Shown here: positions 3,745 through 26,448 of the stretch, one piece after another | How the letters are laid out: each line of letters opens with the position of its first letter | Position numbering within the stretch: the first letter of the stretch is position 1 | NCBI GenBank assembly: GCA_003599425.1 | Contig: QZKC01000096.1 | Location: 1-32,831, forward strand | DNA length: 32,831 nt | From: Nitrospiraceae bacterium | GTDB taxonomy: Bacteria; Nitrospirota; Thermodesulfovibrionia; UBA6902 | Direction: 5' to 3' | Notes under the pieces: model-generated | The model's database searches: none | What the model saw: only the letters and a program-made list of their open reading frames with translations | What the model was told of the DNA's origin: nothing | Translations under genes and position numbers: made by a program

Positions 3745-3844
3745 AATCTGCACCTCCATTTTTGTTTTTGGTTTAGTTGCTGTTCCCACTATATTCCCTC
3801 CTTTGATATTGTATATTGAATTTTTCATTTCCCTTTAAGTCTTG

Positions 3845-3861
3845 AGCAATTCATATGCCAA
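3845..3861 (-). promoter_or_regulatory. Sigma-54 (-24/-12) promoter of the multihaem cytochrome
   Basis: On the minus strand the sequence reads TTGGCATATGAATTGCT. It carries the invariant GG and GC with exactly 10 bases between them and a close match to TGGCAC-N5-TTGC[AT]. With -12 at 3846, transcription would begin near 3834. That gives a leader of about 45 bases to GTG 3789 or 90 bases to ATG 3744. A sigma-54 activator gene (4085-5452) lies immediately upstream, which strengthens the call. Confidence 0.85.
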
Positions 3862-5456: not shown

Positions 5457-6995
5457 TCAAATTGCTCCGCTTAATGCTGCATTCTTTTTGCCGCTCTGCA
5501 TGACCGGTAAAAGTATTGAGAAAATGCTGCCGCTGCCAACTTCACTTATGACCGTTATTTCCCCTCCATGCTCCTGGACTATTCTCTGACTTATGGACAG
5601 CCCCAGACCCGTGCCCTTTGTTTTTCTTGTAAAAAACGGATCGAATATGCTGTCCCTATGTTCTGCTTCTATCCCTTCACCGGTATCTTTAAAACTCACG
5701 ATCAGTATTGTATCACTCTCTATCCGGTTTTTTATATCAGCTCCGATCTCCCTGGCATCAGCAACACGAATTGATATTGTGAGGCCTCCTCCCGCAGGCA
5801 TTGCCTGGACAGCGTTGATCATAAGATTCAGAAAAACCTGCTGCATCTGGTCAGGGTCCATCAGGACTTCAGGGATATCTTTTGCGATCAGGGTAGTTAT
5901 CGAAATATGCTGCCTGTTCGCCTCTGGGTACACAAACAGAAGAGATTTCTCCAGGATATCCTGCATACTGTAAGGAATAAAACTCAGCGGCTTAGGCCGC
6001 GCGTAATTCAAAAGATCCTTCACGATCCTGTCAAGGCGCTTTATCTGATTTAATATCTCGGCGGTGATCTCCCTGTTAGAGTCCCCCTCCTTCATTTCAG
6101 ACTGAATTATCTGGACCGCACAACTTATTCCTGTCAGCGGGTTTTTTATCTCATGAGCTATCCCGGAGATGATCTCACCCAGAGATGCCAGTCTCGCGGC
6201 CTTCTGCATCTGCTCCAGATGATAGCTCTCAACGTGTTTTTTCGTCTTTTCAAGTGATGTAACCATACTGTTAAAACTTTTTGCCATAAGGCCAAATTCG
6301 TTCCCTGAGTCTTCTTCCATTCTGGCAGACAGGTCCCCGTTCTCGATCTTCCTGAAAGCTGTTATCATTTTCTTTATCGGCCTGTCGATCAGCATACTGA
6401 CAACAAACAATATTCCGCCGGCCATTATCAGAAAGGCAACGATGGCATCTGTATAATGCTCTCTTTTGAATTCCTGCACTGTCCTGTTGACGCTGGCGAG
6501 AGAAACATCCAGCGCAAGGACTCCCAATATTTCTTTCTCAGAGCCGTGGCATTTATGACAGACAGGTTGGTTGAGAATGATGGTAAGTTTCGATGCAAAT
6601 CCCTGGCCCTCCTTCTCAGTCAGAAACGCATCAGCATCCTCTCTCTTTGTAAAAATCTGCATGTCTTTCTCATGGATCCTTCCTCCGGTGTCCTGAGGCT
6701 CTGAAGATGCTACGATAAGGCCGCTCTCAGGCAGGAATACCCTGATCCCCTTCAATTCCTTCGATTCTTTTACCTGATCTTCCATGAAAGACTGAAGGTC
6801 CTGCCACTGGTTCTTTAACATGAGGATAACAAGATTGTGTGAGATACTGTCTGAAAGGAGCGTGGCTTTTTCTTTTTGCACGGCAAGGAGTTTTTGTTCG
6901 GTGGCCCTGATGTCCCTAACCGTTGACAAGATCATGATGACCGCAATAATCATTAAGGCAGTGACGGCAATATTAACCTTGACACTATTGAACAT
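5457..6995 (-). CDS. Membrane sensor histidine kinase with a haem c motif in its periplasmic domain
   Basis: The protein has 512 residues. TM1 is at about 8-27, followed by a periplasmic sensor (28-182), TM2 at about 183-204, HAMP (205-257), HisKA with phospho-acceptor His281 in HEIKNPLTG, and HATPase_c with N-box, DTGEG and GTGLGLSIS. The sensor contains CHKCHG (Cys146-His150) just before ILGVLALDVSL, an arrangement like single-cache or DUF3365-type domains that bind haem c. A covalently bound haem would let the kinase read redox state or a gas such as NO; this is inference. It is paired with the sigma-54 regulator 4 bases downstream and diverges from cytochrome cassette I. The start ATG has no strong ribosome site. 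The second in-frame option would truncate TM1. Confidence 0.92.
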   Translation of the reverse strand: MFNSVKVNIAVTALMIIAVIMILSTVRDIRATEQKLLAVQKEKATLLSDSISHNLVILMLKNQWQDLQSFMEDQVKESKELKGIRVFLPESGLIVASSEPQDTGGRIHEKDMQIFTKREDADAFLTEKEGQGFASKLTIILNQPVCHKCHGSEKEILGVLALDVSLASVNRTVQEFKREHYTDAIVAFLIMAGGILFVVSMLIDRPIKKMITAFRKIENGDLSARMEEDSGNEFGLMAKSFNSMVTSLEKTKKHVESYHLEQMQKAARLASLGEIISGIAHEIKNPLTGISCAVQIIQSEMKEGDSNREITAEILNQIKRLDRIVKDLLNYARPKPLSFIPYSMQDILEKSLLFVYPEANRQHISITTLIAKDIPEVLMDPDQMQQVFLNLMINAVQAMPAGGGLTISIRVADAREIGADIKNRIESDTILIVSFKDTGEGIEAEHRDSIFDPFFTRKTKGTGLGLSISQRIVQEHGGEITVISEVGSGSIFSILLPVMQSGKKNAALSGAI

Positions 6996-7303: not shown

Positions 7304-8383
7304 GTGAAGCAAATAAAGTTTTTCCATATGACAGTACAGTTCCTTGTTATGTTCAGCATTCTCTCATTTTCCGGTTTCAGCGCTGAGGCAGCAGACAAGG
7401 AAAATTGCCTCATGTGTCATAAGTACCGTCAGATCGGGCGGATTGATGAACAGGGCAGAAAAAGGAGTTACTATGTAGACGAGCACATTTACTCTAATAC
7501 CACACACAGAAACGTGCCGTGCAGGGACTGCCATACCTACATTAGTAAACTTCCCCATGACCCTGTTACCGAGGAAGTGAACTGCGCTAATGAATGTCAT
7601 ATTAAACCTCCTTTTGCAAACGAGAACTTTTCTCACAAGAAAATAATCGAGACATACAACCGGAGCGTTCACGGGATAAAACCCGCTGACTCGCCCCAGT
7701 TGAGGGACGCAAAGCCATACTGCAAATATTGCCACCTGAACCCAATTTATACAAAAGTGTCAGAAGAGCAGGTTGCTTCAACCAGTCTCATCCGGTGCCT
7801 GAACTGCCATGAAAAGCAGGGAGTGACTATGGCTTACAAACATATAACTCACCGGCTCAGGCATAAAACTTCCCGTTCACCCCAGCAAATCGTACAATTA
7901 TGCTCAAAGAACTGTCATGAAGAAGTTGCGCTTATGGGCCGCTTTAAGGCGTCCGAAGAAAGTCTCGCTGCAGTGGAAACGTATAAGCGTTCCATCCACG
8001 GGAAGTCGGTGGCGCTTGGCGCCCAGGATGCAGCAGATTGTATAAGTTGCCATGCTACGAATGCGATACACGACGTCTATAAGAAGGACGACAAGCAGGC
8101 AACCATTCATAAAGCAAACCGTATAAACACCTGCAGGCAATGTCACGCAAAGGCGAATGACCGTTTTGCACAGATCGATGTTCATTCAGAAATAGACCAG
8201 CATAAAAAGCCGGTTCTTTACTTGACAAATACAGCGCTTGGCTTTGCATTTTACGGCTCCGTATTAGGCCTTGTCGGGCTTATGCTCCTTGAGACCTACG
8301 GCAGGAAAAAAGATGGTATTAAATGGCAGATAAGAAAAGGCACGACCTGGCGCGGACAATCAAAACGCGGGCCAAAATTATAA
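7304..8383 (+). CDS. Octahaem cytochrome c with C-terminal membrane anchor (cassette I, gene 1)
   Basis: The protein has 359 residues from GTG 7304, which follows GAGGGAGGG with 7 bases spacing. An upstream in-frame GTG at 7283 overlaps that ribosome site and is rejected. A signal peptide ends near AEA-ADK. Haem motifs in order are CLMCH, CRDCH, CANECH, CKYCH, CLNCH, CSKNCH, CISCH and CRQCH, so the third and sixth have three residues between cysteines. One TM helix near residues 305-328 is followed by a basic cytoplasmic tail, placing the haems in the periplasm. With the cytochrome b encoded 27 bases downstream it resembles the CbcA/CbcB pairing of Geobacter quinol oxidoreductases. Its inferred role is to take electrons from haem b and pass them to the 3-haem subunit. 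A paralogue is at 13883-14941. Confidence 0.9.
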   Translation: MKQIKFFHMTVQFLVMFSILSFSGFSAEAADKENCLMCHKYRQIGRIDEQGRKRSYYVDEHIYSNTTHRNVPCRDCHTYISKLPHDPVTEEVNCANECHIKPPFANENFSHKKIIETYNRSVHGIKPADSPQLRDAKPYCKYCHLNPIYTKVSEEQVASTSLIRCLNCHEKQGVTMAYKHITHRLRHKTSRSPQQIVQLCSKNCHEEVALMGRFKASEESLAAVETYKRSIHGKSVALGAQDAADCISCHATNAIHDVYKKDDKQATIHKANRINTCRQCHAKANDRFAQIDVHSEIDQHKKPVLYLTNTALGFAFYGSVLGLVGLMLLETYGRKKDGIKWQIRKGTTWRGQSKRGPKL

Positions 8384-8410
8384 ATATTACCAAATAAAAA
8401 AGGAGGGAAA

Positions 8411-9286
8411 ATGGCTACAACCGAGAATATGTCAATCACTCCAGAAGCTGCTGAAGCAGCCGGAGATTTTTATACATATGTTGAAGGCGTCGGCAATATA
8501 CCACGGGATATTTACAAGCACGTGAAATCCGATCCCCTGGGCGACCTTCCCCGTTATTCGATACATATTGTCACACAACATTTCCTGACGTTCATAAGTT
8601 TCCTCATCCTGGCAGCAACAGGACTTACCCTGCATTTTGCTGATCTCTGGTGGGCGTCTTTCGCAATATCACTCTTTGGGGGAGCTGAGACCGGACGGCT
8701 CATTCACAGAATATCAGCAATTGTCATGGTAGCAGCAAGCGTTTATCATCTGGTTACCATCATCGGAGGGACCATAAGCAAGTCAATGAGAAAGCGGTTT
8801 GACATAAAAAGGACGCAAATTCCTCTTCCAAAAGATCTGCAGGACATCATTCATGATTTTAGATATTTTATCGGGAAAGAGCCTTACCGTCCCAAGATGG
8901 AAAAATTCATGTACAAACAGAAGCTGCACTATCTCGCTATTCTTTGGGGAACATTTGTGCTGATCTCCGCAGGGAGCATGCTCCTTTTCCCTGAAAAGAT
9001 GGCGACCATCCTGCCTAATCCTGTGTTCTTCCAGGATCTTGCGCGATTACTGCATGCCGATGAGGCAGTGATGGCTATAACTGTGGTGGTTTTCTGGCAT
9101 TGGTCCAACGTTCATCTCGTACCCGGGAGATTCCCGCTGCAGTGGTCATTTATAACAGGGCGGATCACGAGGGAACACCAGATAGAAGAACACTTCCTGG
9201 AATATCTCAACAACCTCAAGGAAATTCCCGAGGAACGTGAATATATGAAAAAAATCTTAAGAGAAAAAGGTCTCGAAACATACTAA
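8411..9286 (+). CDS. Di-haem cytochrome b membrane subunit (HydC/FdnI/b561-like; cassette I, gene 2)
   Basis: The protein has 291 residues, with a strong ribosome site AAAGGAGGGAAA before ATG. After about 45 hydrophilic residues there are four TM helices: about 55-75, 98-120, 175-195 and 215-240. His pairs suit two haem b groups: His52, His57 and His75 on helix 1; LIHR and YHL on helix 2; HADEA and FWHWSNVH on helix 4. This pattern is typical of the cytochrome b subunits of hydrogenase, formate dehydrogenase and Cbc complexes, which exchange electrons with menaquinone. Menaquinol oxidation is the inferred role. Its paralogue at 14945 shares the HxDEA and W-H-W-x-N-V-H signatures but has a shorter N-terminus. 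Confidence 0.9.
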   Translation: MATTENMSITPEAAEAAGDFYTYVEGVGNIPRDIYKHVKSDPLGDLPRYSIHIVTQHFLTFISFLILAATGLTLHFADLWWASFAISLFGGAETGRLIHRISAIVMVAASVYHLVTIIGGTISKSMRKRFDIKRTQIPLPKDLQDIIHDFRYFIGKEPYRPKMEKFMYKQKLHYLAILWGTFVLISAGSMLLFPEKMATILPNPVFFQDLARLLHADEAVMAITVVVFWHWSNVHLVPGRFPLQWSFITGRITREHQIEEHFLEYLNNLKEIPEEREYMKKILREKGLETY

Positions 9287-9301
9287 AGGAGGTGACATAA
9301 A

Positions 9302-10141
9302 GTGCCAGGCGAACCGAAACGATTGGAACATCCGAAATCAGTTTACATCATAGGTTTTATCTTTAAGATAATCACCCTTTCCGTGCTGATTGCCGTTGTG
9401 TATCAGATCACTCTTTCACCACATGGACCGCAGCTCCTGGTTCCGCTGCAAAAGAAAATGGAAGCTAAGCAGAAATCAGCGATCATGGAAGAGGTCAAGC
9501 GTCAGGAAGAATATGAGATCCACAGGCATTTCCACAATATTGTCAGTTACCCTAAACTCCCTGAGAACGTGCAGCCGGTCTGCTATATCTGTCACTCGGA
9601 TTATCCTCACAGCAAGAGCAAGAAAGTAAGGGCCATGCTGAACATGCATACACAGTTCTTTGTATGTGAAACATGCCACATAGAGGAAAAATATGGAGCG
9701 AGTGTCGTATATAAGTGGTACAATCCTCTTGACAAAGACCCCAAAGGACCATTCTTTGGAACTTCATATGATCCTCAGACAGGGAACCTTGTTGAGGTAG
9801 AGGACCAGTTTTCTAAGATCGCCCCTTATTTCAGGGTCGGAGGAGAATTGCAGTCCGCGCTCCAGATACAGGATGCCCCTTTAGCACAGGATTATGTTAA
9901 GGTCAGGGACAAACTTACACCCGAACAGCGGGACAATGTGAAGAAAAAATTTCATGTCAATATCAAGCCCAAAGGCCATGATTGTAAAAAATGCCACGAC
10001 GAAAAAGGCATTCTCGATTTCAAAAAGCTGGGATACTCGGAAAACAGGATCATGGACCTTAAACAGCTTAATATAGCAGGGATGATAACAAAGTACGAGA
10101 AATTCTATATTCCCAATCTTTTCTCGGATTCACCGCAGTGA
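9302..10141 (+). CDS. Membrane-anchored trihaem cytochrome c (cassette I, gene 3)
   Basis: The protein has 279 residues. GTG 9302 follows AAAGGAGGTGA, a near-perfect ribosome site. An N-terminal TM helix (about 15-38) tethers a periplasmic domain. Haem motifs are CYICH, CETCH and, far downstream, CKKCH. A charged, probably coiled helix separates the TM from the first haem. Other His residues (HRHFHN, YPHS, NMHTQFF) could be distal ligands. The two N-terminal haems followed by YKWYNPLDKD recall small NapC/NrfH-like or c3-like modules, but this is not a member I can name. It is expected to relay electrons from the 8-haem/cytochrome b pair to the giant cytochrome. A paralogue is at 15772-16692. 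Confidence 0.88.
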   Translation: MPGEPKRLEHPKSVYIIGFIFKIITLSVLIAVVYQITLSPHGPQLLVPLQKKMEAKQKSAIMEEVKRQEEYEIHRHFHNIVSYPKLPENVQPVCYICHSDYPHSKSKKVRAMLNMHTQFFVCETCHIEEKYGASVVYKWYNPLDKDPKGPFFGTSYDPQTGNLVEVEDQFSKIAPYFRVGGELQSALQIQDAPLAQDYVKVRDKLTPEQRDNVKKKFHVNIKPKGHDCKKCHDEKGILDFKKLGYSENRIMDLKQLNIAGMITKYEKFYIPNLFSDSPQ

Positions 10142-10219
10142 TGCAGTGATACATGGGAATTTGCTATAGCCGTTTTTTGCACTAAACCTGCAGTTTATTC
10201 TATACTTTTACAAAACGAC

Positions 10220-10256
10220 AGGCCGTCGGGCAGAGCAATGCCCTGTTCGGCGGCCT
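10220..10256 (+). other. Stem-loop between trihaem and NHL genes (cassette I)
   Basis: AGGCCG (10220-10225) pairs with CGGCCT (10251-10256), and GGGCA (10228-10232) pairs with TGCCC (10239-10243) inside it. It is followed by only three T, so at best it is a weak terminator or a processing hairpin that lowers downstream expression. An alternative NHL start ATG (10238) lies inside the loop. A possible -10 box TATACT (10201-10206) lies just upstream. Cassette II has no counterpart. Confidence 0.5.
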
Positions 10257-10291
10257 TTATCCAGGCTACTGATCGGACGAGCTATAGTGCA

Positions 10292-11248
10292 ATGAACTTA
10301 TCATCGAAAATTCTTAAAAATACCACATTGCAGCGACTATATTTATTTCTGATAATACTCCTGATTCCTGCAATTCATTTCATCCCTGTTAATACCTTCG
10401 CCCAGGAATGCATTAACACTAAATTCCTTTTCGATGTCAAGCCAAATGCCGACCAGCCGAGCGACCTCGCGATTGCCCCGAATGGGGATATATACCTGGT
10501 CGACGGCATAAACAACAGGATAGTCGTGGTCGACAGTGAAGGCCGATGGAAATTTGAATTCGGCACTGAAGGAGCTGGCAACGGCCAGTTCAACAGGCCT
10601 TTGGGGATAGACATATCTGAAAATGGAAATGTTTTCATAGCAGACACCGGCAACCACAGGATCCAGGCCTTTGACCTCAAAGGAAACTTCCAGAATGCAT
10701 TCACTGTCAGAACAGGTTCCCAGCAGACAAGATCAGACCCGGTTGATGTTGCAGTTTCCAAATTCAAAAACTATCTATACGTATCTGATAATGATAATCA
10801 GAAGATCAGGGTTTATGACAGAAGCGGCAACCTTGAATTTGAGTGGGGCAAGTTCGGCGAAGGACAAGGCGAGTTCAGATATCCCGGAATCATGGCAATT
10901 AATCAGATCAATGAGGTCTTCGTGGTGGATGTCCTGAACACGCGGGTTCAGAAATTCGATCCCTTCGGCCAGTTTATCACTTCTATCGGCATATGGGGCG
11001 TTTTGCCGGGAAAATTTTTTCGTCCCAAGGGAGTAGCCATAGACAAACAGAACAGGGTGTTTATCAGTGATAGCTATATGGGGGTCATACAGGTCTTTAC
11101 GGACGTGGGAAGTTTTATCGGCATTGTTTGCGATACCGGAAAGAAGAGGACTTTCAATACGCCTGTAGGTATTGCTGTCGACAAGAACAACAGACTGCTG
11201 GTCGTGGAGATGAGAAGCAATAAAATAACCGTTTTGAAGATACTGTAA
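10292..11248 (+). CDS. Secreted NHL-repeat propeller (cassette I, gene 4)
   Basis: The protein has 318 residues from ATG 10292. The start was chosen because the resulting signal peptide (basic n-region, LYLFLIILLIPAI core, cleavage near TFA-QE) is normal, whereas ATG 10238 lies in a stem-loop and adds an 18-residue non-basic extension. Neither start has a good ribosome site. Six blades carry QPSDLAIAPNG, RPLGIDIS, DPVDVAVS, YPGIMAIN, RPKGVAID and TPVGIAVD turns. It has no haem motif. Its paralogue (16696-17682) shares long identical stretches such as SDSYMGVIQVF. It lies between the trihaem and giant cytochromes in both cassettes, which argues for a structural role in the conduit, such as docking or scaffolding. 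Function is otherwise unknown. Confidence 0.87.
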   Translation: MNLSSKILKNTTLQRLYLFLIILLIPAIHFIPVNTFAQECINTKFLFDVKPNADQPSDLAIAPNGDIYLVDGINNRIVVVDSEGRWKFEFGTEGAGNGQFNRPLGIDISENGNVFIADTGNHRIQAFDLKGNFQNAFTVRTGSQQTRSDPVDVAVSKFKNYLYVSDNDNQKIRVYDRSGNLEFEWGKFGEGQGEFRYPGIMAINQINEVFVVDVLNTRVQKFDPFGQFITSIGIWGVLPGKFFRPKGVAIDKQNRVFISDSYMGVIQVFTDVGSFIGIVCDTGKKRTFNTPVGIAVDKNNRLLVVEMRSNKITVLKIL

Positions 11249-11342
11249 CCATTGGAAGGCGCAAAAGGTAGTCTGCGGAAGACCTATAGGCATGGAAAGA
11301 CGTTAAATAAAATTTAATACGTTTGGAAATTTACAATATATA

Positions 11343-13598
11343 ATGAGATCGTTATATCTTATCCTTCTGTTTTTTTGTTTCATAATAATTTTTGCCTGCC
11401 TTCAGCCTGCGCATGCTCTCGAAATGGCCTCCAAAAGGGACTGCGTTATGTGCCACATAATGTGGAGCGAGGAGTTCAGAACAGATAAGGAACCTTTGAT
11501 CGAATGGCAGCCCGGCAACGTCCTTATGAAAGATACCCAGGGGGTTGTCAGCTCTGAGGATATCTGCTATAGCTGCCATGACGGTTATGTCCAGGATTCA
11601 CGCAATATTGTCTGGAAATATAACAGGCACAAGGTATTCGTTAAACCGTCCAAAAATGTCACTATACCGCCAAATCTGCCGCTCAGTGTAAAAGATGAAA
11701 TATACTGCGGGACGTGCCATTCAGCACACGGCAAGGGCGCTGCGCCGCATGGTGAGATCGGCAGGACCGCTGTTTACAGAGAAATAAATATTGATTCCAG
11801 CCTGTGTGAACAATGCCACAGGAATGAGGCTTCCTTTAAATATTCAAACAGCCATCCCATCCACACCGGAGCGCTCGAACTACCTGACGAGATTTTTGCC
11901 CAGGGAGCCAAAAAAGCTTCCAGTAAAAATACCGTTATCTGTCAGAGCTGCCATAAGGTGCACGGAGCAAAGGGAGACAAGATCCTTCTTCTCAACAATA
12001 ATAATTCTGAACTTTGCGTCATATGCCATGAGAAACAGAAATCCTTGGCGGACACAAAACACGACCTCCGCATAACACTTCCAGAAGAAAAAAATCTTAA
12101 AAAACAGGCGCTCTCAGAATCCGGCCCTTGCAGCGCTTGCCATACACCTCATAATGCCGCCGGGAAAAAGCTGTGGGCACGCCCGCTCGATGAGGGGAAT
12201 CCCGCGACCCAGATGTGTCTTACATGCCATGGCGAGGACAAGCCATATAAAATAAAGCGCACCGGGACATACTCTCATCCCATAAACGTTGACCCTCCTG
12301 CCCAGGGGAAACACCCGGCACATCTTCCTCTTTTCTCGGAAGACGGGACAAAGAATCCGGAGGGAAAGATCCAGTGCTTCACCTGTCACGATGTGCATGT
12401 ATGGGATACTGCTTCTCCGGAAAATAAAGGAGGAAAAGACATTGAAGGTGATTCCTCCAACAGCTTTCTGAGGGTTACCAATGTTTCAGCAGCCCTATGC
12501 CTTGAGTGTCACTCCGAAAAAAAACAGATCGTGACCTCTGACCATAATCTTGCGGTAACAGCGCCTGAGGAAAAAAATGTCCAGGGATTTACTGCCTCGC
12601 AATCAGGACCGTGCGGTGTATGTCACATACCCCACAATGCGGCATCAGCCCGTCTCTGGTCCAGGAACCTTTCCGGAAAAAATGATTTCGTCACGCAACT
12701 GTGTACAGGCTGTCACAATAAAAAAGGCCCTGCAAAGGAAAAACTTACCGGTGAACATTATCATCCTGTGGACGTTTCATTGAACAGATTCGGAATTAAA
12801 ACGTCACTGCCTCTTTACAATAGCGACGGCGGCAAGGCCCCGGACGGGAAGATGGTCTGCCTTACCTGTCACGAGCCGCATGTATGGGATCCGGCAAACC
12901 CGGTAATAAATTATGAGTTGAAGAATATGGAAGGAAACGCCTCAACCAGTTTTCTGCGCAAGCCCAATGTCCCTTCCTCTGATCTGTGCAAAAGCTGCCA
13001 CGCAAGCCAGGCTCTTGTTGACGGAACAGACCATGACCTGAACATAACTGCTCCTGATGAAAAAAATCTTCTCGGACAGGCCGCAATAGAATCCGGACCA
13101 TGCGGGGTATGCCACCTGGTTCACAACAGTCCCAACACGTTAAAACTGTGGGCACGGCCATACGGCAACGTCACACATAATGAAGACATCATAAATGGTT
13201 TATGCTACAGTTGTCACTCAAAAAGGAAAATAGCTGCAAGCAAAATTCCAGTCATCGCAACGCACCCTGAGGGTAAGCTGATAAATAACATCCTGAGAAG
13301 TGATCATCTTGCGATAGATTATGCCCCCATCTATGATAAAAAAACCGGGGAGGAGACAAATGTCGGCAACATTTCCTGCCCCACATGCCACAACGCCCAT
13401 CAGTGGAGTCCTCTGGCAAAGGAAAAGGGCAGCAACGAAAATCTCGAAGGCAACGCGACAAACAGCTTTCTGAGAAATGCAGGATATAACAATATCTGCA
13501 TCGACTGCCACGGCCTTGATGCCCTTTTCAGATACAAATATTTCCACGACCCGGAAGAACGGGTTGAAACCCGCCAGATAATCAAGATCATCAAGTAG
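11343..13598 (+). CDS. Giant 18-haem cytochrome c (cassette I, gene 5)
   Basis: The protein has 751 residues and 18 CXXCH motifs, from CVMCH near residue 34 to CIDCH near 719. A signal peptide ends near AHA-LEM. An upstream Cys (I-F-A-C) is an imperfect lipobox, so lipidation is possible. The N-terminal third holds 6 haems. The rest is three tandem repeats of about 140-150 residues with 4 haems each. The repeat order is: DHDL-x-[IV]-T-[AL]-P-x-E-K-N, CxxCH-x-x-H-N, LW-[AS]-R, CxxCH, HP-[IV], CxxCH-x-x-H-x-W, EG-[ND]-x-x-x-SFLR, CxxCH. No transmembrane helix follows the signal peptide, so it is periplasmic or exported. The role is inferred to be a long-distance electron wire. It has no recognisable ribosome site and starts 95 bases after the NHL gene. 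Confidence 0.9.
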   Translation: MRSLYLILLFFCFIIIFACLQPAHALEMASKRDCVMCHIMWSEEFRTDKEPLIEWQPGNVLMKDTQGVVSSEDICYSCHDGYVQDSRNIVWKYNRHKVFVKPSKNVTIPPNLPLSVKDEIYCGTCHSAHGKGAAPHGEIGRTAVYREINIDSSLCEQCHRNEASFKYSNSHPIHTGALELPDEIFAQGAKKASSKNTVICQSCHKVHGAKGDKILLLNNNNSELCVICHEKQKSLADTKHDLRITLPEEKNLKKQALSESGPCSACHTPHNAAGKKLWARPLDEGNPATQMCLTCHGEDKPYKIKRTGTYSHPINVDPPAQGKHPAHLPLFSEDGTKNPEGKIQCFTCHDVHVWDTASPENKGGKDIEGDSSNSFLRVTNVSAALCLECHSEKKQIVTSDHNLAVTAPEEKNVQGFTASQSGPCGVCHIPHNAASARLWSRNLSGKNDFVTQLCTGCHNKKGPAKEKLTGEHYHPVDVSLNRFGIKTSLPLYNSDGGKAPDGKMVCLTCHEPHVWDPANPVINYELKNMEGNASTSFLRKPNVPSSDLCKSCHASQALVDGTDHDLNITAPDEKNLLGQAAIESGPCGVCHLVHNSPNTLKLWARPYGNVTHNEDIINGLCYSCHSKRKIAASKIPVIATHPEGKLINNILRSDHLAIDYAPIYDKKTGEETNVGNISCPTCHNAHQWSPLAKEKGSNENLEGNATNSFLRNAGYNNICIDCHGLDALFRYKYFHDPEERVETRQIIKIIK

Positions 13599-13882
13599 CC
13601 CAAAGCCCATCATTATTCACAAACCGTAGCAAGTATGGCGAAAAAATATATTTTGCGACGCATTTGCGGTAGTCATTAAACCACTTCCTGTGACAGAGCT
13701 TTCTGCATGCTCTTTAAAAAAACCTGTCGCGTAAAAGATGTTTTTGCGTTATGCCTGCTACGGTTAATCTTTATAATCAATCATCATCTTTTCATTAAAA
13801 TTAATTATTTTACAAACCGGAAATTTCTGCTATAAAGAAGTTAAGGAACGTTTAACCGTATTTCATATTTAAGGGGGCATCT
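13599..13882. other. Intercassette region with long-range inverted repeat and -10 box
   Basis: No gene is seen here. AACCGTAGCA (13622-13631) is perfectly complementary to TGCTACGGTT (13756-13765), so a 144-base segment could close on a 10-bp stem. Inside are a smaller hairpin (AGAGC/GCTCT, about 13697-13715) and a GACGCA-TT-TGCG motif (13657-13668) like the palindrome near the sigma-54 promoter at 3956. TATAAT at 13772-13777 is a perfect -10 box without a good -35, about 105 bases ahead of cassette II. Whether the repeat is RNA structure, operator sites for DNA looping or a relic is undetermined. Confidence 0.5.
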
Positions 13883-14941
13883 ATGCGAGAATTAAAAATA
13901 ACTTCCGTAACTTTGCCAACTTTTACCCTGGTCCTTTCCCTGCTCATGATTTTCCTCACACCAGACGTATATTCGGCAGATATCGGCAACTGCCTTCTCT
14001 GCCACAAATATCCCGGCCTCAGCAGGGTCGATGAAAAAGGGAAATTGCGGCTTCTTTATATTAACGAAGATATCTTCAACAACAGTGTTCATGCCAAAGT
14101 AAAATGCGAGGGCTGCCATTTGGATATTCAGAAAATCCCGCATGACCCGGCAAAAAAAGTTGACTGCCTTGCCGAATGCCATATAAAAGAACCATCAAGC
14201 GAGCAGAAATTCTCCCACAAAGATATAGAAAAAACGGTTGCCATGAGCGTGCACAGCAAGTACGACAAGGATGGAAAAGAAAAAAAATTCAGTGAAGACC
14301 TCCCCACCTGCAAGGAGTGTCATGATGAACCGTTATACAGGCCTATTTCTTTTTTTAAGCAGGTTCGTGCCGGAATTTCAGAATTATCGTTAAGCAGGTG
14401 CAAATCATGTCACAAGAAGGAGGATTTCATATACAAATTTTACAATCATGTCACGTCGCGTATGCACAGGACCAGAAATCCGCTGAATATCGCCGAATCC
14501 TGCTCCAGATGTCATGACGATCTGCAGATCATAAAACGGCATAATCTTTCCGCCAAAGCCGCCTTTTCATACGGAGAAACATTCCATGGCAAGGCTGCCA
14601 GGTTCATGGATGAACGTATCCCGGACTGCCTCGACTGCCATGTCAAAAAAGGGGATGCTTCTCATTTGATGCTCAGCAAGGAGAATCCTGAGTCTGCAAT
14701 ACATGAAAAGAATAAAGGGAAGATCTGCGCAAGCATTGATTGTCATCCCAGTGCTTCGCCAAAACTTGCCAAATATGGGGTGCACTCAGAATTCAGTCTT
14801 GACAGAAGCCCTGCCCAATACTATTTTACGGTCTTCTTTATCATTCTGACCGGCGGCACATTGCTTCCGTTAATGGGAATTATCTTGCTTGATCTGATCA
14901 GAAAACTCTTCCCGAATGCCATGATAAGAAGGAGGAAATAA
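13883..14941 (+). CDS. Octahaem cytochrome c with C-terminal membrane anchor (cassette II, gene 1)
   Basis: The protein has 352 residues. AAGGGGG lies 6 bases before the ATG. It is a paralogue of 7304-8383 with the same order: signal peptide (cleavage near YSA-DIG), eight haem sites, one TM helix (about 312-335) and a basic tail. The haem motifs are CLLCH, CEGCH, CLAECH, CKECH, CKSCH, CSRCH, CLDCH and CASIDCH. The third keeps the three-residue spacer. The sixth is standard here, and the eighth has a four-residue spacer. It is expected to pair with the cytochrome b encoded 3 bases downstream. Confidence 0.9.
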   Translation: MRELKITSVTLPTFTLVLSLLMIFLTPDVYSADIGNCLLCHKYPGLSRVDEKGKLRLLYINEDIFNNSVHAKVKCEGCHLDIQKIPHDPAKKVDCLAECHIKEPSSEQKFSHKDIEKTVAMSVHSKYDKDGKEKKFSEDLPTCKECHDEPLYRPISFFKQVRAGISELSLSRCKSCHKKEDFIYKFYNHVTSRMHRTRNPLNIAESCSRCHDDLQIIKRHNLSAKAAFSYGETFHGKAARFMDERIPDCLDCHVKKGDASHLMLSKENPESAIHEKNKGKICASIDCHPSASPKLAKYGVHSEFSLDRSPAQYYFTVFFIILTGGTLLPLMGIILLDLIRKLFPNAMIRRRK

Positions 14942-14944
14942 GCA

Positions 14945-15775
14945 ATGGAAAAACATCCTTTAATCAAGATAAAAGACGGGAAAAAATACTTTTACAGGTT
15001 TACCCTGAACCAGAGGATACAGCATATCATCCTCGCATGGTCTGTTGTAACATTAGTGCTCACAGGAATGCCTCTCAAATTCCCCGATGCGTCATGGGCG
15101 CCTTACCTTTACGCCCTCTTCGGAGGTATAAAGTATGCACCAGTCATTCATAAGGCATTTGGTTCGATCCTGCTTATCCTCTTTGTTTATCATGTCGTTT
15201 ACGTCATATATCTGATCTATAAATACCAGATCGTCCCGCTGAAAGCAGCAGGGAAGAAGAACGCCAGGAATATTCTGCTGGCTTTCGCAAAGCAACCGCT
15301 TGTTCCAAACCTCAAAGACGCTTATGACATAAAAGACCTTATGAAGTACCTCCTCTTTTTCACGAACAGGCGCCCTGAAGGAGACAAGTTCACCTGGAAG
15401 GAGAAGTTTGATTACTGGGCCCCTTTCTGGGGCATGGTCGTCATCGGCTTTTCCGGGCTTGTCATGTGGAACAAAGAACTTGCAACCATGATACTGCCGG
15501 GACAGGCCATAAATTTTTCCCTGATAGCCCACAGCGATGAAGCCCTGCTCGCAGCGCTGTTCCTGTTTATATGGCACTGGTACAACGTACATTTTTCAAT
15601 CACTGTCTTTCCCATGGGAAAGGTATTTATTACAGGATATCTGCCGGAAGAACTTATGGTTGAGGAGCATTATCAACACTATACAGAAGTAATGAAACAG
15701 GCAGGCCTGGAACATGAAATTCTTCCGCCGCACGGCTCGCACGAAGTGAATCAGGAAGGGGGGCACACCTTATGA
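14945..15775 (+). CDS. Di-haem cytochrome b membrane subunit (cassette II, gene 2)
   Basis: The protein has 276 residues, with ribosome site AGGAGG about 10 bases before ATG and overlapping the end of the preceding gene. Four TM helices carry histidines in RIQHIILAWS, VIHKAFG, VYHVVYVIY and HSDEALLA...WHWYNVHF, giving ligands for two haem b. It belongs to the HydC/FdnI/b561-like family, as does 8411-9286, but lacks that protein's 30-residue N-terminal extension. The role is inferred menaquinol oxidation, with electrons delivered to the octahaem partner. Its 3' end overlaps the next start (ATGA), so translation of the two is probably coupled. Confidence 0.9.
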   Translation: MEKHPLIKIKDGKKYFYRFTLNQRIQHIILAWSVVTLVLTGMPLKFPDASWAPYLYALFGGIKYAPVIHKAFGSILLILFVYHVVYVIYLIYKYQIVPLKAAGKKNARNILLAFAKQPLVPNLKDAYDIKDLMKYLLFFTNRRPEGDKFTWKEKFDYWAPFWGMVVIGFSGLVMWNKELATMILPGQAINFSLIAHSDEALLAALFLFIWHWYNVHFSITVFPMGKVFITGYLPEELMVEEHYQHYTEVMKQAGLEHEILPPHGSHEVNQEGGHTL

Positions 15776-16692
15776 AAAACCTGTTCTACAAGTTCTATAT
15801 CGTAGGATTTATGGCCTTGACCGTATGGTTCATAGTCATCATCTGGAAAGTGACATTTGCGCATATCATCGAAGAATACCACACAAGAAAAGAGGCTATA
15901 GAGATAGCAAAGATCAAGCAGCAGCAGGAAGGCGAGATGAAAAAAAGCACATTTCAGAAACTCATCCTTGAAGGAGATGAGCGTGTAAAAGTATATCTCG
16001 GATACAAGATCCTCGAAGAAAAGAGGATAAAAGGGCACTTCCATCACATCGGATTCGATATCGGCCCTGACAAAAGGTCGCACTGCATCATGTGTCATGG
16101 CGATATGCCGCATGACAATCTAAAGGAGCTGCGCGCTTTTCTGAATATGCATGCATTTTTTGTATCATGCCAGACCTGTCATATGCGGCTTGAAGGAACT
16201 GCGAAGACAGGCATTTATAAATGGTACGACAGGGCCTCCGGTGAGATAGTTGACAGCCCTGTAAAAAAGGCAAGGCCTGGTTCTTATGTAGCAAAGATCA
16301 TCCCGTTTGAGCGTGTAAACGGTCAGCTTGAACGGATAGACTCTCAGGACAAGATCGATTTTGCCCTGGAGTTCAAGGACAAAGAGAAGACGCTGACAGA
16401 GGCCCAGAGATCAAAGGCAAAAAAGATGATACACCAGGTAGTGAACAAGCAGCCCTATGTCTGTGAGGACTGCCACCGCAAAGACTCTCCGCTGCTGCCG
16501 TTTTCCGAGCTTGGATATCCGAAAGAAAGAATTGACTCCCTGACAAGCACGGAAGTCGTAGGCATGATAAAAAATTATACTCAGTTCTATATGCCGAGGA
16601 TGCTGCATCCTGGAGAGACCGCACCAAAAGAAATACAGCGTGATGGCACAGAGAGCAAACCGACTACATTGACCTTAAAGACAAAACAATGA
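15772..16692 (+). CDS. Membrane-anchored trihaem cytochrome c (cassette II, gene 3)
   Basis: The protein has 306 residues and starts in the ATGA overlap with the cytochrome b stop. It has an N-terminal TM helix (about 8-30), then a charged, probably helical region to about residue 85. Haem motifs are CIMCH, CQTCH and CEDCH. It is paralogous to 9302-10141: both share H-x-x-MP/YPH after the first haem, LRAFLNMHA/VRAMLNMHT, YKWY and a C-terminal ELGYPKERI/KLGYSENRI segment. It carries a longer hydrophilic C-terminal tail (about 20 residues) that the paralogue lacks. Its inferred role is relay from the inner-membrane subunits to the giant cytochrome. Confidence 0.88.
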   Translation: MKNLFYKFYIVGFMALTVWFIVIIWKVTFAHIIEEYHTRKEAIEIAKIKQQQEGEMKKSTFQKLILEGDERVKVYLGYKILEEKRIKGHFHHIGFDIGPDKRSHCIMCHGDMPHDNLKELRAFLNMHAFFVSCQTCHMRLEGTAKTGIYKWYDRASGEIVDSPVKKARPGSYVAKIIPFERVNGQLERIDSQDKIDFALEFKDKEKTLTEAQRSKAKKMIHQVVNKQPYVCEDCHRKDSPLLPFSELGYPKERIDSLTSTEVVGMIKNYTQFYMPRMLHPGETAPKEIQRDGTESKPTTLTLKTKQ

Positions 16693-16695
16693 ACA

Positions 16696-17682
16696 ATGTG
16701 CAATGAACACGCATCTATCAAAGGGGCTTATTCTGGTTATCCGGCGTTAAACATTTGCCTTTGTTTGTTGCTTCTTGTTCTTGCCGGACTTCTGGTCCCG
16801 GCAAACAATGCCTATGGGCTGCGGCTCACGCATGTAAAGCACCTTTTTGACCTGACCCAGAGCTTCAAGCAGCCCAGCGACGTCGCCGTATCACATGAAG
16901 GACAGATATACGTTGTGGACGGCGTTAATAACAAGATCAAGGTATTCAACCAGAACGGAAAGTTTTCCTTCTCGTTCGGGCAAAAAGGTTCCGGCAACGG
17001 TGAATTCAACTTCCCGCTTGGAATCTGCGTTGACAGGACTGGCAGGGTATACGTCGCTGACTCAGGCAACAGCAGGGTACAGGCATTTACCACAGCAGGG
17101 AATTATCTCGGCCAGTTAAAACTCCAGTCAAAAAACGGAACCGCTCCGGACCCAACTGATGTGGCTGTTGATCATAACGGAAGGACCCTGTATGCAATTG
17201 ACAACAACAACCATAATGTTCATGCATATAATCTTTCCAATGGAAGGCTGACAGGAATTTATGGATCCCCCGGCGAGGGGAACAGGGAGTTCAGGTATCC
17301 GTTCTTCATCAGCCTCGACAGTGAAGATTATCTCTATATCGTTGATGTCATCAATACCCGTGTTCAGGTACTGAATCCGGAAGGGCTCTATGTGGCGAGC
17401 ATCGGCAAATGGGGAGTTGAAAAAGGGTCATTTTTCAGGCCAAAGGGAGTGGCTCTTGATGCAAAAGACCGTATTTATGTAAGTGACAGCTACATGGGTG
17501 TTATCCAGGTCTTTGACCCCGAGGGAGTGTTCTATTCCACCATAGGCGACCCTGTAACGAACTCCGTCAGGAAGTTTACCACCCCGACAGGCATATATAT
17601 CGACGACAATAACAGGCTCTATGTAGTGGAGATGTTTGCTGAAAAAGTAAGCGTGTATCAGATAGAGAAAGACACTGAATAA
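16696..17682 (+). CDS. Secreted NHL-repeat propeller (cassette II, gene 4)
   Basis: The protein has 328 residues. The start is 3 bases after the trihaem stop with no ribosome site, so it probably depends on coupled translation. A hydrophobic h-region (ICLCLLLLVLAGLLV) ends near AYG-LRL. Six NHL blades follow (QPSDVAVSHEG, FPLGICVD, DPTDVAVD, YPFFISLD, RPKGVALD, TPTGIYID). It has no haem site or enzyme motif. It occupies the same position as the NHL gene of cassette I, directly before the giant cytochrome. Confidence 0.88.
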   Translation: MCNEHASIKGAYSGYPALNICLCLLLLVLAGLLVPANNAYGLRLTHVKHLFDLTQSFKQPSDVAVSHEGQIYVVDGVNNKIKVFNQNGKFSFSFGQKGSGNGEFNFPLGICVDRTGRVYVADSGNSRVQAFTTAGNYLGQLKLQSKNGTAPDPTDVAVDHNGRTLYAIDNNNHNVHAYNLSNGRLTGIYGSPGEGNREFRYPFFISLDSEDYLYIVDVINTRVQVLNPEGLYVASIGKWGVEKGSFFRPKGVALDAKDRIYVSDSYMGVIQVFDPEGVFYSTIGDPVTNSVRKFTTPTGIYIDDNNRLYVVEMFAEKVSVYQIEKDTE

Positions 17683-17709
17683 AATGTTGCGGGATAAAAA
17701 CCCCTTATC

Positions 17710-20235
17710 ATGCGAAAGAAATCAGCAATAAGAGAAAGCGTTTGGAAGGCTGTTATAACGGCTTTCTTAATGCTGATTTTTGCATTCTGTGTTCTGCGCC
17801 CCTTTGATATCGCATCTGCACAGGCCGTTGCCCCCAAAAACCCTGACTCGGCCAAGGAATGCGCGATATGCCATTACAACTGGATAGATACCTTCTTTGT
17901 TCATGGCAGAGGCTCTGACCTCGTTGAATATACAGCAGAGAAGGTTGCGGCAAAACCCGAGATGTGCTTTTCGTGCCATGACGGCAGCGTAGTCGATTCA
18001 CGTGCGCGGGTATATAACGACCACAGGCACAGGATCAATCAGCCTCCTCCTCACGGGATGGAGATACCAAAGATATTCCCGCTGGACCAGGACGGGAAAA
18101 TGCAGTGTTTTACCTGTCATACTGCTCATGGCGTGCCCAGCGATATGAGCATTGAAACGACTATTTTCCTGAGGACATTTAATAACAATTCCGAAATGTG
18201 CCGCATGTGCCACGCCGACAAGACCGGTGGGATTGAAAAGGGGAATCATCCGGTAGATACCACAACTATGGATATACCGAGGCGGCTTTTTGACGGTGGG
18301 GCAAAGGTTGGAGAGAAAAAAAACCAGATCATCTGCGAGACCTGCCATACAGTGCATGGGTCACCGTATGAAAGTTTTCTGGTGGAAAGTGCACGGGATA
18401 CCTCACTCTGTGTTGATTGCCACAGTGACAAAGATATTTTTACTCCGGAGGGAAACAGAAACCATAACCATGTAATCAATGTTGTCCCGGTAAAGACCAA
18501 GATACCTGAAGACCTCACTAAAAAGGGGGCCCGGCTGGGCCGTGAGGGTGAGATCATCTGCCAAACCTGCCACAAGGTCCACAATAACAAGATTGAGAAG
18601 AAGCTGCTTTTAATAAAACAGGACAATAAATCTTCGTTGTGCCTGACCTGCCACACAGACAAGCAGTATATTGCCGACACGAAGCATAACCTCATGCACT
18701 CAGCTCCGGCAGAAAAGAACATGGAAGGGAAAACGGTCGAAGAAGCCGGTATATGTTCAGCCTGTCATCTTCCTCATAAGGACGCACGGAAACCGGGAGA
18801 AGGCACGGATTTCACAACGCAGCTCTGCCTCAGTTGCCACAGCAAGGATAATATAGCAAAGGAATCCATTCCCAAAGATACGACGCACCCTTTGAATGTG
18901 AAATTTTCAAAGGATAAGGATGCCGCGGGAACAGCCGTAATTGACAGGGAAAACTTCTCGCTTCCGCTCTATGAGAGGTCTGGGGTCCAGAATATTGAAG
19001 GAGAGATCACGTGTTCGACATGTCACGACCCTCACAGATGGCAGGCGGATTCCACAAAAGGCGAAATCTCAAAAGAAGTCAAAGGTGACAAGACAACATC
19101 ATTCTTGCGGAAGCCGGCTCCTGAGATATGCAGGGAATGTCACGGGAATAAATTCTATATTGCCAATTCAAAGCATGATATCGGCCTGGTTGCCCCTGAA
19201 GAAAAGAACATCCTTGGACAGGCCCCGAAGGAATCCGATATCTGTGGCTCATGCCATCTTGTGCATGGAGGCGGGAGGGACTATTTATGGGCGCGGGAGG
19301 AGACAAAGATCAAAGGTGAGAACCCTGCTGCGGCCCTCTGTGTCAGATGCCATAATGAAAAAGGCATGGCCAAAAAGAAAGTGATCACGGACTATTCACA
19401 CCCGCTCAATATCTCTCTTTCCGAAAAAGGATTATCCACTACCCTGCCTCTTTACGGCAAAGACGGGAAAGTCTCGCAAAACGGCGTCATGGTCTGTCAG
19501 ACCTGTCATGACCCTCACCGCTGGGACCCTGCAAGAATTATTCAGGAAGACCACTCAAAGACAGAAGGGGACTCGCGCAACAGTTTTCTGAGAACTGAAA
19601 ATTCCCCTTCATCACGTCTCTGTGAAAACTGTCATCAGGAAAATGCCTATGTCCAGAAAACAGATCATGACCTTATAATCACCGCGCCTGATTTCAAAAA
19701 CAGTACAGGACAGGTCCCGTCCGAATCAGGGACCTGCGGCGTTTGCCATCTCGTGCATAACAGTATGATACAGGTGAAACTTTGGGCACAGGGATTTGCA
19801 AAAGGCAGCAGCGTCATGGACATGATGTGCAATTATTGCCATAACACTGCAGGGGTGGCGAAAGATAAAATACCTAAAGTTACATCACATCCCGAAGGGC
19901 AGCTCATTATCAATATTGGCAGGGATGTAAAGAACGCCCCGAACTACTTCCCTCTTTTTGATAAAGATAAAGGAGCCTTTGTAACAGTCGGCAATATCTC
20001 ATGCTCTTCCTGTCATAACGTGCATCAATGGGACCCGAGGTCCCACGTCAAAGGTGATGGGGTCAATATCGAAGGGAGCGCAACGAACAGTTTTCTCAGG
20101 ATGCAGACCTTTAACCTGCTCTGTGTGGACTGCCACGGGCTTGATGCATTATTCAGGTACAAATATTATCATGACCCTGAGGAACGGGTTGAGACCACGC
20201 GGAATCCCTTAATTCCTGTCATAAAAAGCAGGTAG
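17710..20235 (+). CDS. Giant 20-haem cytochrome c (cassette II, gene 5)
   Basis: The protein has 841 residues and 20 CXXCH motifs. The signal peptide (basic MRKK, then a hydrophobic core) ends near ASA-QAV, with no lipobox. The N-terminal part has 8 haems, and the C-terminal part is three tandem 4-haem repeats like those of the 11343-13598 paralogue. The extra two haems come from one added di-haem unit: both CETCHTVHG...CVDCH and CQTCHKVHN...CLTCH are present where the paralogue has one such unit. The C-terminal ends are nearly the same (CxDCHGLDALFRYKY-[FY]-HDPEERVET). No TM helix is present. It is inferred to be a periplasmic or exported electron wire. The last 27 bases overlap the convergent VanZ-like gene. 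Confidence 0.9.
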   Translation: MRKKSAIRESVWKAVITAFLMLIFAFCVLRPFDIASAQAVAPKNPDSAKECAICHYNWIDTFFVHGRGSDLVEYTAEKVAAKPEMCFSCHDGSVVDSRARVYNDHRHRINQPPPHGMEIPKIFPLDQDGKMQCFTCHTAHGVPSDMSIETTIFLRTFNNNSEMCRMCHADKTGGIEKGNHPVDTTTMDIPRRLFDGGAKVGEKKNQIICETCHTVHGSPYESFLVESARDTSLCVDCHSDKDIFTPEGNRNHNHVINVVPVKTKIPEDLTKKGARLGREGEIICQTCHKVHNNKIEKKLLLIKQDNKSSLCLTCHTDKQYIADTKHNLMHSAPAEKNMEGKTVEEAGICSACHLPHKDARKPGEGTDFTTQLCLSCHSKDNIAKESIPKDTTHPLNVKFSKDKDAAGTAVIDRENFSLPLYERSGVQNIEGEITCSTCHDPHRWQADSTKGEISKEVKGDKTTSFLRKPAPEICRECHGNKFYIANSKHDIGLVAPEEKNILGQAPKESDICGSCHLVHGGGRDYLWAREETKIKGENPAAALCVRCHNEKGMAKKKVITDYSHPLNISLSEKGLSTTLPLYGKDGKVSQNGVMVCQTCHDPHRWDPARIIQEDHSKTEGDSRNSFLRTENSPSSRLCENCHQENAYVQKTDHDLIITAPDFKNSTGQVPSESGTCGVCHLVHNSMIQVKLWAQGFAKGSSVMDMMCNYCHNTAGVAKDKIPKVTSHPEGQLIINIGRDVKNAPNYFPLFDKDKGAFVTVGNISCSSCHNVHQWDPRSHVKGDGVNIEGSATNSFLRMQTFNLLCVDCHGLDALFRYKYYHDPEERVETTRNPLIPVIKSR

Positions 20236-26428: not shown

Positions 26429-26448
26429 AATCCTCCCTCCGTGTATTC

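Follow-up and report, generated by a model that had tools for sequence, protein, structure and literature searches.

In the 32,831-nucleotide stretch of DNA from a Nitrospiraceae bacterium analysed here (the window; contig 26 of a 2.9-Mb draft genome in 106 contigs), ten plus-strand genes at 7304-20235 form two consecutive five-gene cassettes of multihaem cytochromes, a cytochrome b and an NHL beta-propeller. On balance, we consider it likely, if by no means certain, that the cassettes encode a quinone-linked trans-envelope electron relay with two quinone modules, completed at its outer end by a conduit in part of the carriers; in the window's genome it probably has a role in extracellular electron transfer. 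This reading is based on gene content, conservation of haem ligands, predicted membrane anchors, synteny, trees, the homology of the first two subunits to fused proteins and, in part of the carriers, adjacency or co-residence of an outer-membrane locus. From these we infer the electron path, the role of the propeller, the hand-off to the porin locus and the formation of a complex.

Beyond Shewanella and Geobacter, the exit of electrons from the quinone pool and the crossing of the periplasm are among the less settled steps of extracellular electron transfer. Here the cassette would be a candidate whose parts are defined and genetically linked, reaching from the quinone module to the wire and present in Nitrospirota, Desulfobacterota and Gammaproteobacteria; many of the host genomes carry dsrA, and a non-redox propeller can be named as a conserved part.

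In the proposed relay, the cytochrome b (B) would exchange electrons with the (mena)quinone pool via two b-haems, and an octahaem (A) and a trihaem cytochrome (C), each held by one membrane anchor at the periplasmic face, would collect electrons from B. The exported 18- or 20-haem cytochrome (E) would serve as a bis-His haem wire over the periplasm, with the propeller (D) as a scaffold seating E on its partners. The far end, in at least part of the carriers and in the window's genome, is probably a Uet-like conduit composed of a porin, two NHL proteins and tetra- and dodecahaem c-type cytochromes, and relay and outer-membrane conduit together would make up an extracellular electron transfer pathway. 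The two cassettes would supply two long-diverged quinone modules, ABC1 and ABC2.

Gene content of the two cassettes

The ten genes follow each other head to tail in the order A1-B1-C1-D1-E1-A2-B2-C2-D2-E2, on the strand and in the twin tandem order described in an initial annotation of this DNA. A1 (7304..8383) encodes an octahaem c-type cytochrome with six CXXCH and two CX3CH motifs, a leader and a C-terminal membrane anchor, predicted from a transmembrane-like segment at residues 318-336 of the 366-residue open reading frame. Its GTG start at 7304, preceded by GGGAGG, is plausible; the mechanical start of the reading frame is 7283. B1 (8411..9286) encodes a probably di-haem cytochrome b with conserved histidines, which is formate-dehydrogenase-gamma-like and has a likely quinone site. 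It is followed by C1 (9302..10141), a trihaem c-type cytochrome with three CXXCH motifs and a predicted N-terminal anchor (transmembrane-like segment 14-32), and by D1 (10238..11248), a predicted exported NHL beta-propeller (PF01436, 4e-29) with a hydrophobic leader at residues 34-52. The true start of D1, judged by eye, is probably an internal Met codon at about 10292, before this leader. E1 (11343..13598) has 18 CXXCH motifs and is predicted to be exported, likely as a periplasmic wire.

The second cassette consists of the paralogues A2 (13883..14941; six CXXCH, one CX3CH and one CX4CH), B2 (14945..15775), C2 (15772..16692; three CXXCH), D2 (16696..17682; PF01436, 3.5e-32) and E2 (17710..20235; 20 CXXCH). 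Identities between the cassettes amount to 35% for A, 31% for B, 32% for C, 45% for D and 44% for E, in agreement with the earlier statement that the genes are paralogous throughout. The motif counts of 29 (8+3+18) and 31 (8+3+20) c-haems per cassette were also reproduced. E1 and E2, which match Paired_CXXCH in Pfam, are 751 and 841 amino acids long, and relatives reach 24 haems; the term 'giant' given to them before is relative and overstates their size.

The hydropathy profiles gave one anchor each in A (C-terminal) and C (N-terminal), about three membrane segments in B, and leaders only in D and E; a simple pattern search found no lipobox in D or E. A conserved His position of D was considered as an axial ligand for E and dropped, as the D1 of the window has Gln there; we take this position to be the usual His of the NHL repeat.

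A and B resemble a split quinone module

Both B proteins pass the gathering score of PF01292 (cytochrome b561/Ni-hydrogenase b; 30.1 bits), with 35.5 bits for B1 and 43.1 bits for B2, and both miss the cut-off of TIGR01583 (formate dehydrogenase gamma; 115.85 bits), with 35.7 and 56.6 bits, respectively. Histidines 57, 99, 113, 215, 230 and 235 of B1 are conserved, and these six would be enough for two b-haems. A sequence search of the PDB with B1 gave no match.

The search with B also found frames of 644-695 amino acids in seven gamma genomes. The seven fusion proteins fetched (640-674 amino acids) contain nine haem motifs each, and their N-terminal half resembles the A profile and their C-terminal half the B profile, with full-protein E-values of 9.5e-29 to 6.7e-39 for the A1 profile (matching in pieces in three of the seven) and 2.5e-51 to 4.9e-56 for the B2 profile. 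Since the two profiles match the two halves of fused nine-haem/cytochrome b proteins, A plus B resembles a split form of a quinone module of the CbcL/MtoC/MtrH type, the fusions having been recognised by architecture alone. A kinship with Cbc-type quinone modules, in line with the comparison to the Geobacter Cbc family in the initial annotation, is supported by this match.

CbcL, MtrH and MtoC are described as enzymes that oxidise quinol or reduce quinone in extracellular electron transfer (PMC6295460), and in the sections of that source on these enzymes they belong with extracellular electron transfer clusters and consist of an N-terminal multihaem c part to which a formate-dehydrogenase-gamma-like cytochrome b is joined, an order of parts shared by A plus B. 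They are, however, single polypeptides, whereas the window and the mapped loci encode A and B separately, and the cassette has eight c-haems instead of nine, plus the trihaem C, the propeller D and the long E. A second comparison is offered by the Pcc-associated proteins Dester_0351 and Theam_0871 of Desulfurobacterium/Thermovibrio, which contain six CX2CH plus two CX3-5CH motifs and resemble the cytochrome b of formate dehydrogenase (Shi et al. 2014, PMC4245776). Going by this description, their haem inventory equals that of A plus B, but each is a single polypeptide, and the section devoted to them reports no propeller or E.

Distribution and synteny of the cassette

Relatives were taken from a scan of GTDB genomes with the B gene, and the best 80 of 165 were kept. 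The locus groups are coarse: 'Nitrospirota/near' takes in two records titled Deferribacteres, and 'Gamma/other' takes in a Thiobacillus and a Polarisedimenticolaceae record, both counted among the 22 gamma genomes. By record title, the hosts include Nitrospirota, Desulfobacterales, other 'Deltaproteobacteria', Gammaproteobacteria and a Thiobacillus. The order ABCDE was intact in 54 of the 80 loci, and in 53 of 64 when at least 2.5 kb was present after C; locus L143 was scored as not intact for the sole reason that its E frame had been assigned a start ahead of D. Neither of the outcomes that the initial annotation had named as refuting its reading was obtained: the five-gene synteny is found in several phyla and is not confined to the window, and the trees described below gave no unrelated origins for the subunits of a cassette.

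Among Nitrospirota, the C profile had matches in 20 of 395 genomes, which we refer to as carriers. The tandem arrangement ABCDE-ABCDE was present, contig breaks permitting, in eight of them (the window's genome, G365, G333, G209, G313, G249, G329 and G225), and two more (G369 and G299) had both cassette types apart from each other; the remaining carriers had a single cassette or one interrupted by contig ends. That two versions were kept side by side, as the initial annotation suggested, is supported by these tandems; copying as one unit is not supported.

Some related genes lie outside this pattern. A third, divergent ABC module with 29-34% identity and without D or E was seen at L046:5276-8035, and at L058:8750-10237 a second type-1 copy has decayed: it has lost B, and its A continues in frame into C. 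Ten genomes also encode stand-alone hexahaem proteins outside the cassettes (L052:588-1640 on contig 70 of the window's genome, L042, L043, L044, L045 and L047-L051), which on visual inspection resemble an N-terminal stretch of A linked to C.

An outer-membrane locus accompanies the cassette in part of the carriers

In two gamma loci (L123 and L145), a gene array of the order c4-NHL-porin-NHL-c12-c8, where c4 and c12 are tetra- and dodecahaem c-type cytochromes, leads directly into ABCDE. The porin candidate of these loci (676-693 amino acids) has no Pfam match. The L145 protein was modelled as a large beta-barrel (pLDDT 85.3), for which Foldseek returned many outer-membrane barrels; among the 50 rows shown, the best TM-scores were those of MtrB of the Mtr complex (6r2q_B, 0.44/0.46, i.e. 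below 0.5), which ranked 36 by E-value. A porin relative was located inside the fetched flank in 14 of 42 gamma loci (three of these cut). At the genome level, the porin profile matched in 15 of the 22 gamma genomes, in 13 of these 15 on the cassette contig, in six of the 20 Nitrospirota carriers strongly and in one more weakly, and in two of the five Desulfobacterota/Delta genomes tried. One Desulfobacteraceae contig holds both cassettes and porin locus (L104, L162).

In the window's genome, a locus of this kind is present on contig 13 (L156). It encodes a c4, a c7, an NHL protein with lipobox, a five-haem protein with lipobox, a porin, a second NHL protein, a c12 and another c7, and a kinase/regulator pair lies close to it. 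Compared with L145, the identities were 48% for c12, 39-42% for the NHL proteins and 22% for the porin. The Uet locus described in Ca. Tenderia and Gallionella has a tetrahaem c, a porin, two NHL proteins and an 11/12-haem c (PMC10734462), all of which occur in the contig 13 locus, as far as inventories can be compared. The described Uet also includes three trihaem cytochromes, a TPR protein and a PPIase (PMC10734462, PMC5371394); there is no trihaem frame among those listed for L156, and none except C in L123 and L145, while TPR and PPIase proteins were not searched for. The passages on Uet in these two papers do not mention an ABCDE cassette.

The conduit is a frequent, not a constant, partner of the cassette. 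A c12 above 800 bits was found in nine of the 395 Nitrospirota genomes, six of which are carriers, as against 20 carriers in 395 overall (p 6e-7), a value confounded by relatedness. At a looser cut (E 1e-60), c12 was found in 72 of 395, with eight of 20 carriers versus 64 of 375 others (p 0.016). Co-occurrence of c12 and the cassette was therefore not accepted as proof: in addition to this confounding, it weakens and then reverses within the window's family (see below). Taken by themselves, the statistics fall short of proving a link in Nitrospirota, and the argument is carried by the contiguity in the other groups.

Where the relay may end

Several observations speak against a complete relay from quinone to the outer membrane. 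The strong c12/porin locus is present in just six of the 20 Nitrospirota carriers and is not an obligate partner, and the strong cut of 800 bits was set after the scores were seen. Within the window's family, strong c12 occurred in six of 15 carriers versus none of six non-carriers (p 0.09), and at the looser cut the relation was reversed, with six of 15 carriers versus five of six non-carriers. Four loci (L095, L099, L103 and L106) have ABC without adjoining D-E despite room for it, and in two (L078 and L087), A, B, C and D, the last partial in L087, are not accompanied by an intact E, even though about 9 kb of contig follow. The ABC and D-E halves can thus part. On the side of the proteins, the A-profile match to the fusions was scored without an unrelated multihaem control, and one haem in each E is without a conserved distal His, which leaves room for a catalytic or partner-ligated site. 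The AF2 model of E1 is middling (pLDDT 70.2, pTM 0.61) and poor at the N-terminus (20-96), and Foldseek found nothing in the PDB for it at E 0.001.

With a strong c12 locus missing from 14 of the 20 Nitrospirota carriers, the quinone-linked relay could also end in the periplasm and serve soluble reductases or dehydrogenases there, the outer-membrane locus being an occasional neighbour. We regard this as possible, though not probable. The looser-cut c12 relative, as frequent in non-carriers of the family as in carriers or more so, fits it, and dsrA, above cut-off in 48 of the 60 genomes searched, in carriers and five of six family non-carriers alike, is also in keeping with it. The MtrB family (PF11854), tried as a general outer-membrane partner, was rejected, with two matches of about 130 positions in the 20 carriers, both barely above the cut-off, and none in the window's genome. 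In one locus (L082:568-6983), the region upstream of the tandem cassettes encodes a pair of multihaem cytochromes (8 and 12 motifs) together with a protein resembling ferredoxin and a large one with a TAT-type leader, these two assigned by eye; such genes could belong to a periplasmic destination. However, E appears to exceed the length required of a periplasmic donor, the carriers in question may have other, unrecognised outer-membrane conduits, and cassette and porin-cytochrome locus are contiguous in 13 of the 22 gamma genomes and on the Desulfobacteraceae contig. A relay connected to an outer-membrane conduit in part of the carriers remains the reading that we prefer.

Two old quinone modules and a probably younger wire

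In the trees of A, B and C, each of the two types contains both Nitrospirota/Desulfobacterota and gamma members. Trees in which the Nitrospirota/Desulfobacterota rows of both types were united were rejected by the approximately unbiased (AU) test, with p-AU of 0.00091 for A, 1.8e-47 for B and 7.9e-7 for C. These tests were run on quick trees of sampled loci, without L104_B1_11112 and L105_B2_734 and with the Nitrospirota family f26 coded as Gamma. Rows more than 90% identical, C rows with more than four haems or more than 420 amino acids, and rows of low coverage were removed from the trees; L104_B1_11112, type 1 by best match, was placed in a third, divergent group of the B tree. The alignments for ligands and fusion profiles were made without L104_B1_11112, L105_B2_734 and the L046 rows. 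Since each type spans both lineage groups and their joint grouping was rejected, the quinone modules ABC1 and ABC2 are, judging from these trees, older than the split between Gamma and Nitrospirota/Desulfobacterota. The idea of a cassette duplicated as a unit, raised in the initial annotation, must be abandoned for A, B and C.

D and E appear to be of more recent origin. In the D tree, rooted with Uet-like propellers and built from sampled loci without L102_D1_1, D1 and D2 of Nitrospirota/Desulfobacterota united with a support of 100/96, and the midpoint-rooted E tree gave the same grouping of E1 and E2 (eight unnamed Nitrospirota loci were offered for it, and E was required to have 85% coverage and 29% identity). 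The AU test on D does not reject a clade of D1 with Gamma (p 0.154) or of D2 with Gamma (p 0.166). In the trees of C, D and E, family f26 clustered with Gamma, which suggests a transfer between the lineages.

Both B types were present in 14 of the 22 gamma genomes, in ten of these with the type-2 module within the mapped locus. In the other four (G408, G410, G413 and G416; L172-L175), a complete A2-B2-C2 was found on a contig other than that of ABCDE, with no relative of D or E beside it in the 6-6.5 kb fetched. A single cassette-type E was present in 11 of the 14 two-module genomes and more than one in G398, G404 and G413.

These results favour an order of events in which the ABC modules came first, in two kinds, and the D-E unit was duplicated later, with the AU test not decisive for D. 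The mismatch in age between ABC and D-E gives a testable clue that quinone modules and wires may be separate, exchangeable units. A tentative extension, which we would not call likely, is that two different quinone modules, ABC1 and ABC2, split before the phyla exchanged or inherited them and dock on one shared D-E wire as two gates of different potential or opposite direction; the wire would later have been copied for each gate in Nitrospirota/Desulfobacterota, and the E haem for which no distal His is conserved might receive its ligand from a partner subunit, the junction thereby becoming part of the complex. The clades permitted by the AU test, together with the three gamma genomes with more than one E, would also agree with a single duplication of the entire five-gene cassette followed by loss of one D-E pair in the gammas. 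We find this rather unlikely, given the free D tree, the same grouping of E (on a midpoint-rooted tree) and the identities of the D and E pairs, which exceed those of the A, B and C pairs.

Haem ligands of A and E

Conserved distal histidines were available for eight of eight haems of A1 in all 67 type-1 rows, and A2 has nine conserved non-proximal histidines per eight haems (26 rows). In E1, 17 conserved distal histidines were counted for 18 haems (42 rows), and in E2, 19 for 20 haems (32 rows), at a length of about 42 amino acids per haem. Judged by residue order, the unpaired haem of E would be the N-terminal one or its neighbour, in the region that was poorly modelled in E1. As nearly all haems of A and E have a conserved distal His, A appears to be fully and E nearly fully bis-His ligated, which points to wires rather than catalysts.

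In octahaem reductases of the HAO, OTR and ONR type, the catalytic site at one of the haems is open or non-His. With eight distal histidines for its eight haems, A1 is not expected to have such an open haem. It is very improbable that A or E acts as a terminal multihaem enzyme supplied by B and C, such as a reductase of sulfur or nitrogen oxyanions: no known enzyme family was over its cut-off among the NCBIfam rows listed for the cassette proteins, and what hints at catalysis is the one distal His by which E falls short, together with weak, non-significant Foldseek matches to hydroxylamine oxidoreductase and MccA obtained with the E1 model. The PDB sequence search with E2 returned three marginal matches. 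Chance is not a serious alternative, in view of the conserved haem motifs of the cassettes and their synteny across phyla.

Relation to other described systems

The PCC3 cluster of Sideroxydans and Leptothrix combines a porin with an inner-membrane protein that probably binds two b-haems and with a periplasmic cytochrome whose roughly 21 haems are proposed to reach across the periplasm (PMC5566968, PMC10734462), and the proposed relay with its outer-membrane locus is similar to it in these three parts. The inner-membrane protein of PCC3 has, however, two WX3HX13H motifs on two helices (PMC5566968), whereas B belongs to PF01292, and B1 has HX13H (His 99/113) and HX14H (His 215/230), with Gly and Ala in place of Trp at the positions four residues ahead of His 99 and His 215. 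Octahaem, trihaem and NHL subunits do not appear in the PCC3 descriptions in these sources.

NHL propellers have been listed among putative extracellular electron transfer cytochromes in Desulfovibrio ferrophilus, Geoalkalibacter and Dethiobacter, but in the parts of this literature that deal with them, the order octahaem-cytochrome b-trihaem-NHL-long cytochrome is not reported. The initial annotation had supposed that a propeller combined with a giant cytochrome is an undescribed electron conduit. What stands of this is that some of the genomes have an outer-membrane locus along with the cassette. The combination is only partly new: multihaem clusters with adjacent NHL proteins are already on record for Uet and for these three organisms. 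The five-gene cassette itself was not found described in the open-access full-text literature, subscription journals and preprints being outside the scope of the search.

Flanking genes and side observations

Divergently from the cassettes, on the minus strand, the window encodes a sensor histidine kinase (5457..6995; HisKA, HATPase_c and HAMP domains) with a CXXCH motif at residue 146 in its sensor part, possibly a c-haem redox or ligand sensor as far as this motif can tell; PF21563 matched weakly (20.6 bits, below the cut-off of 27). Its partner is an NtrC-type sigma-54 response regulator (4085..5452, minus strand; Response_reg, Sigma54_activat and HTH_8). Further to the left on the same strand are a multihaem cytochrome (2572..3828; five CXXCH and one CX5CH) and an NHL propeller (1353..2336; PF01436). 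Relatives of both were found at the same place in L073, L079, L080, L085 and L087, and of the cytochrome also in L089.

At least 5 kb before A1 was available in 16 of 23 Nitrospirota loci. A close relative of the regulator (72-78% identity) precedes A1 in seven of these 16, six of them with the kinase; one has a distant pair and eight have neither. A distant kinase/regulator pair also lies before A1 in f26 (L143, L146). A sigma-54 promoter upstream of A1 was sought and no convincing site was found, the window having 19 matches with at most two mismatches against 31.6 expected. A sigma-54-like site with one mismatch occurs at 3846-3860, just upstream of the flanking cytochrome gene, and is weak given this site count below chance.

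Elsewhere in the window, a DUF4382/YncE-propeller protein is interrupted by the window edge (1-1353), and a 791-residue protein at 29643-32018 has no Pfam match at E 0.01. At 25067-27120, there is a haem-copper oxidase subunit I-like protein (PF00115) together with a cytochrome c partner that has two cytochrome-c stretches.

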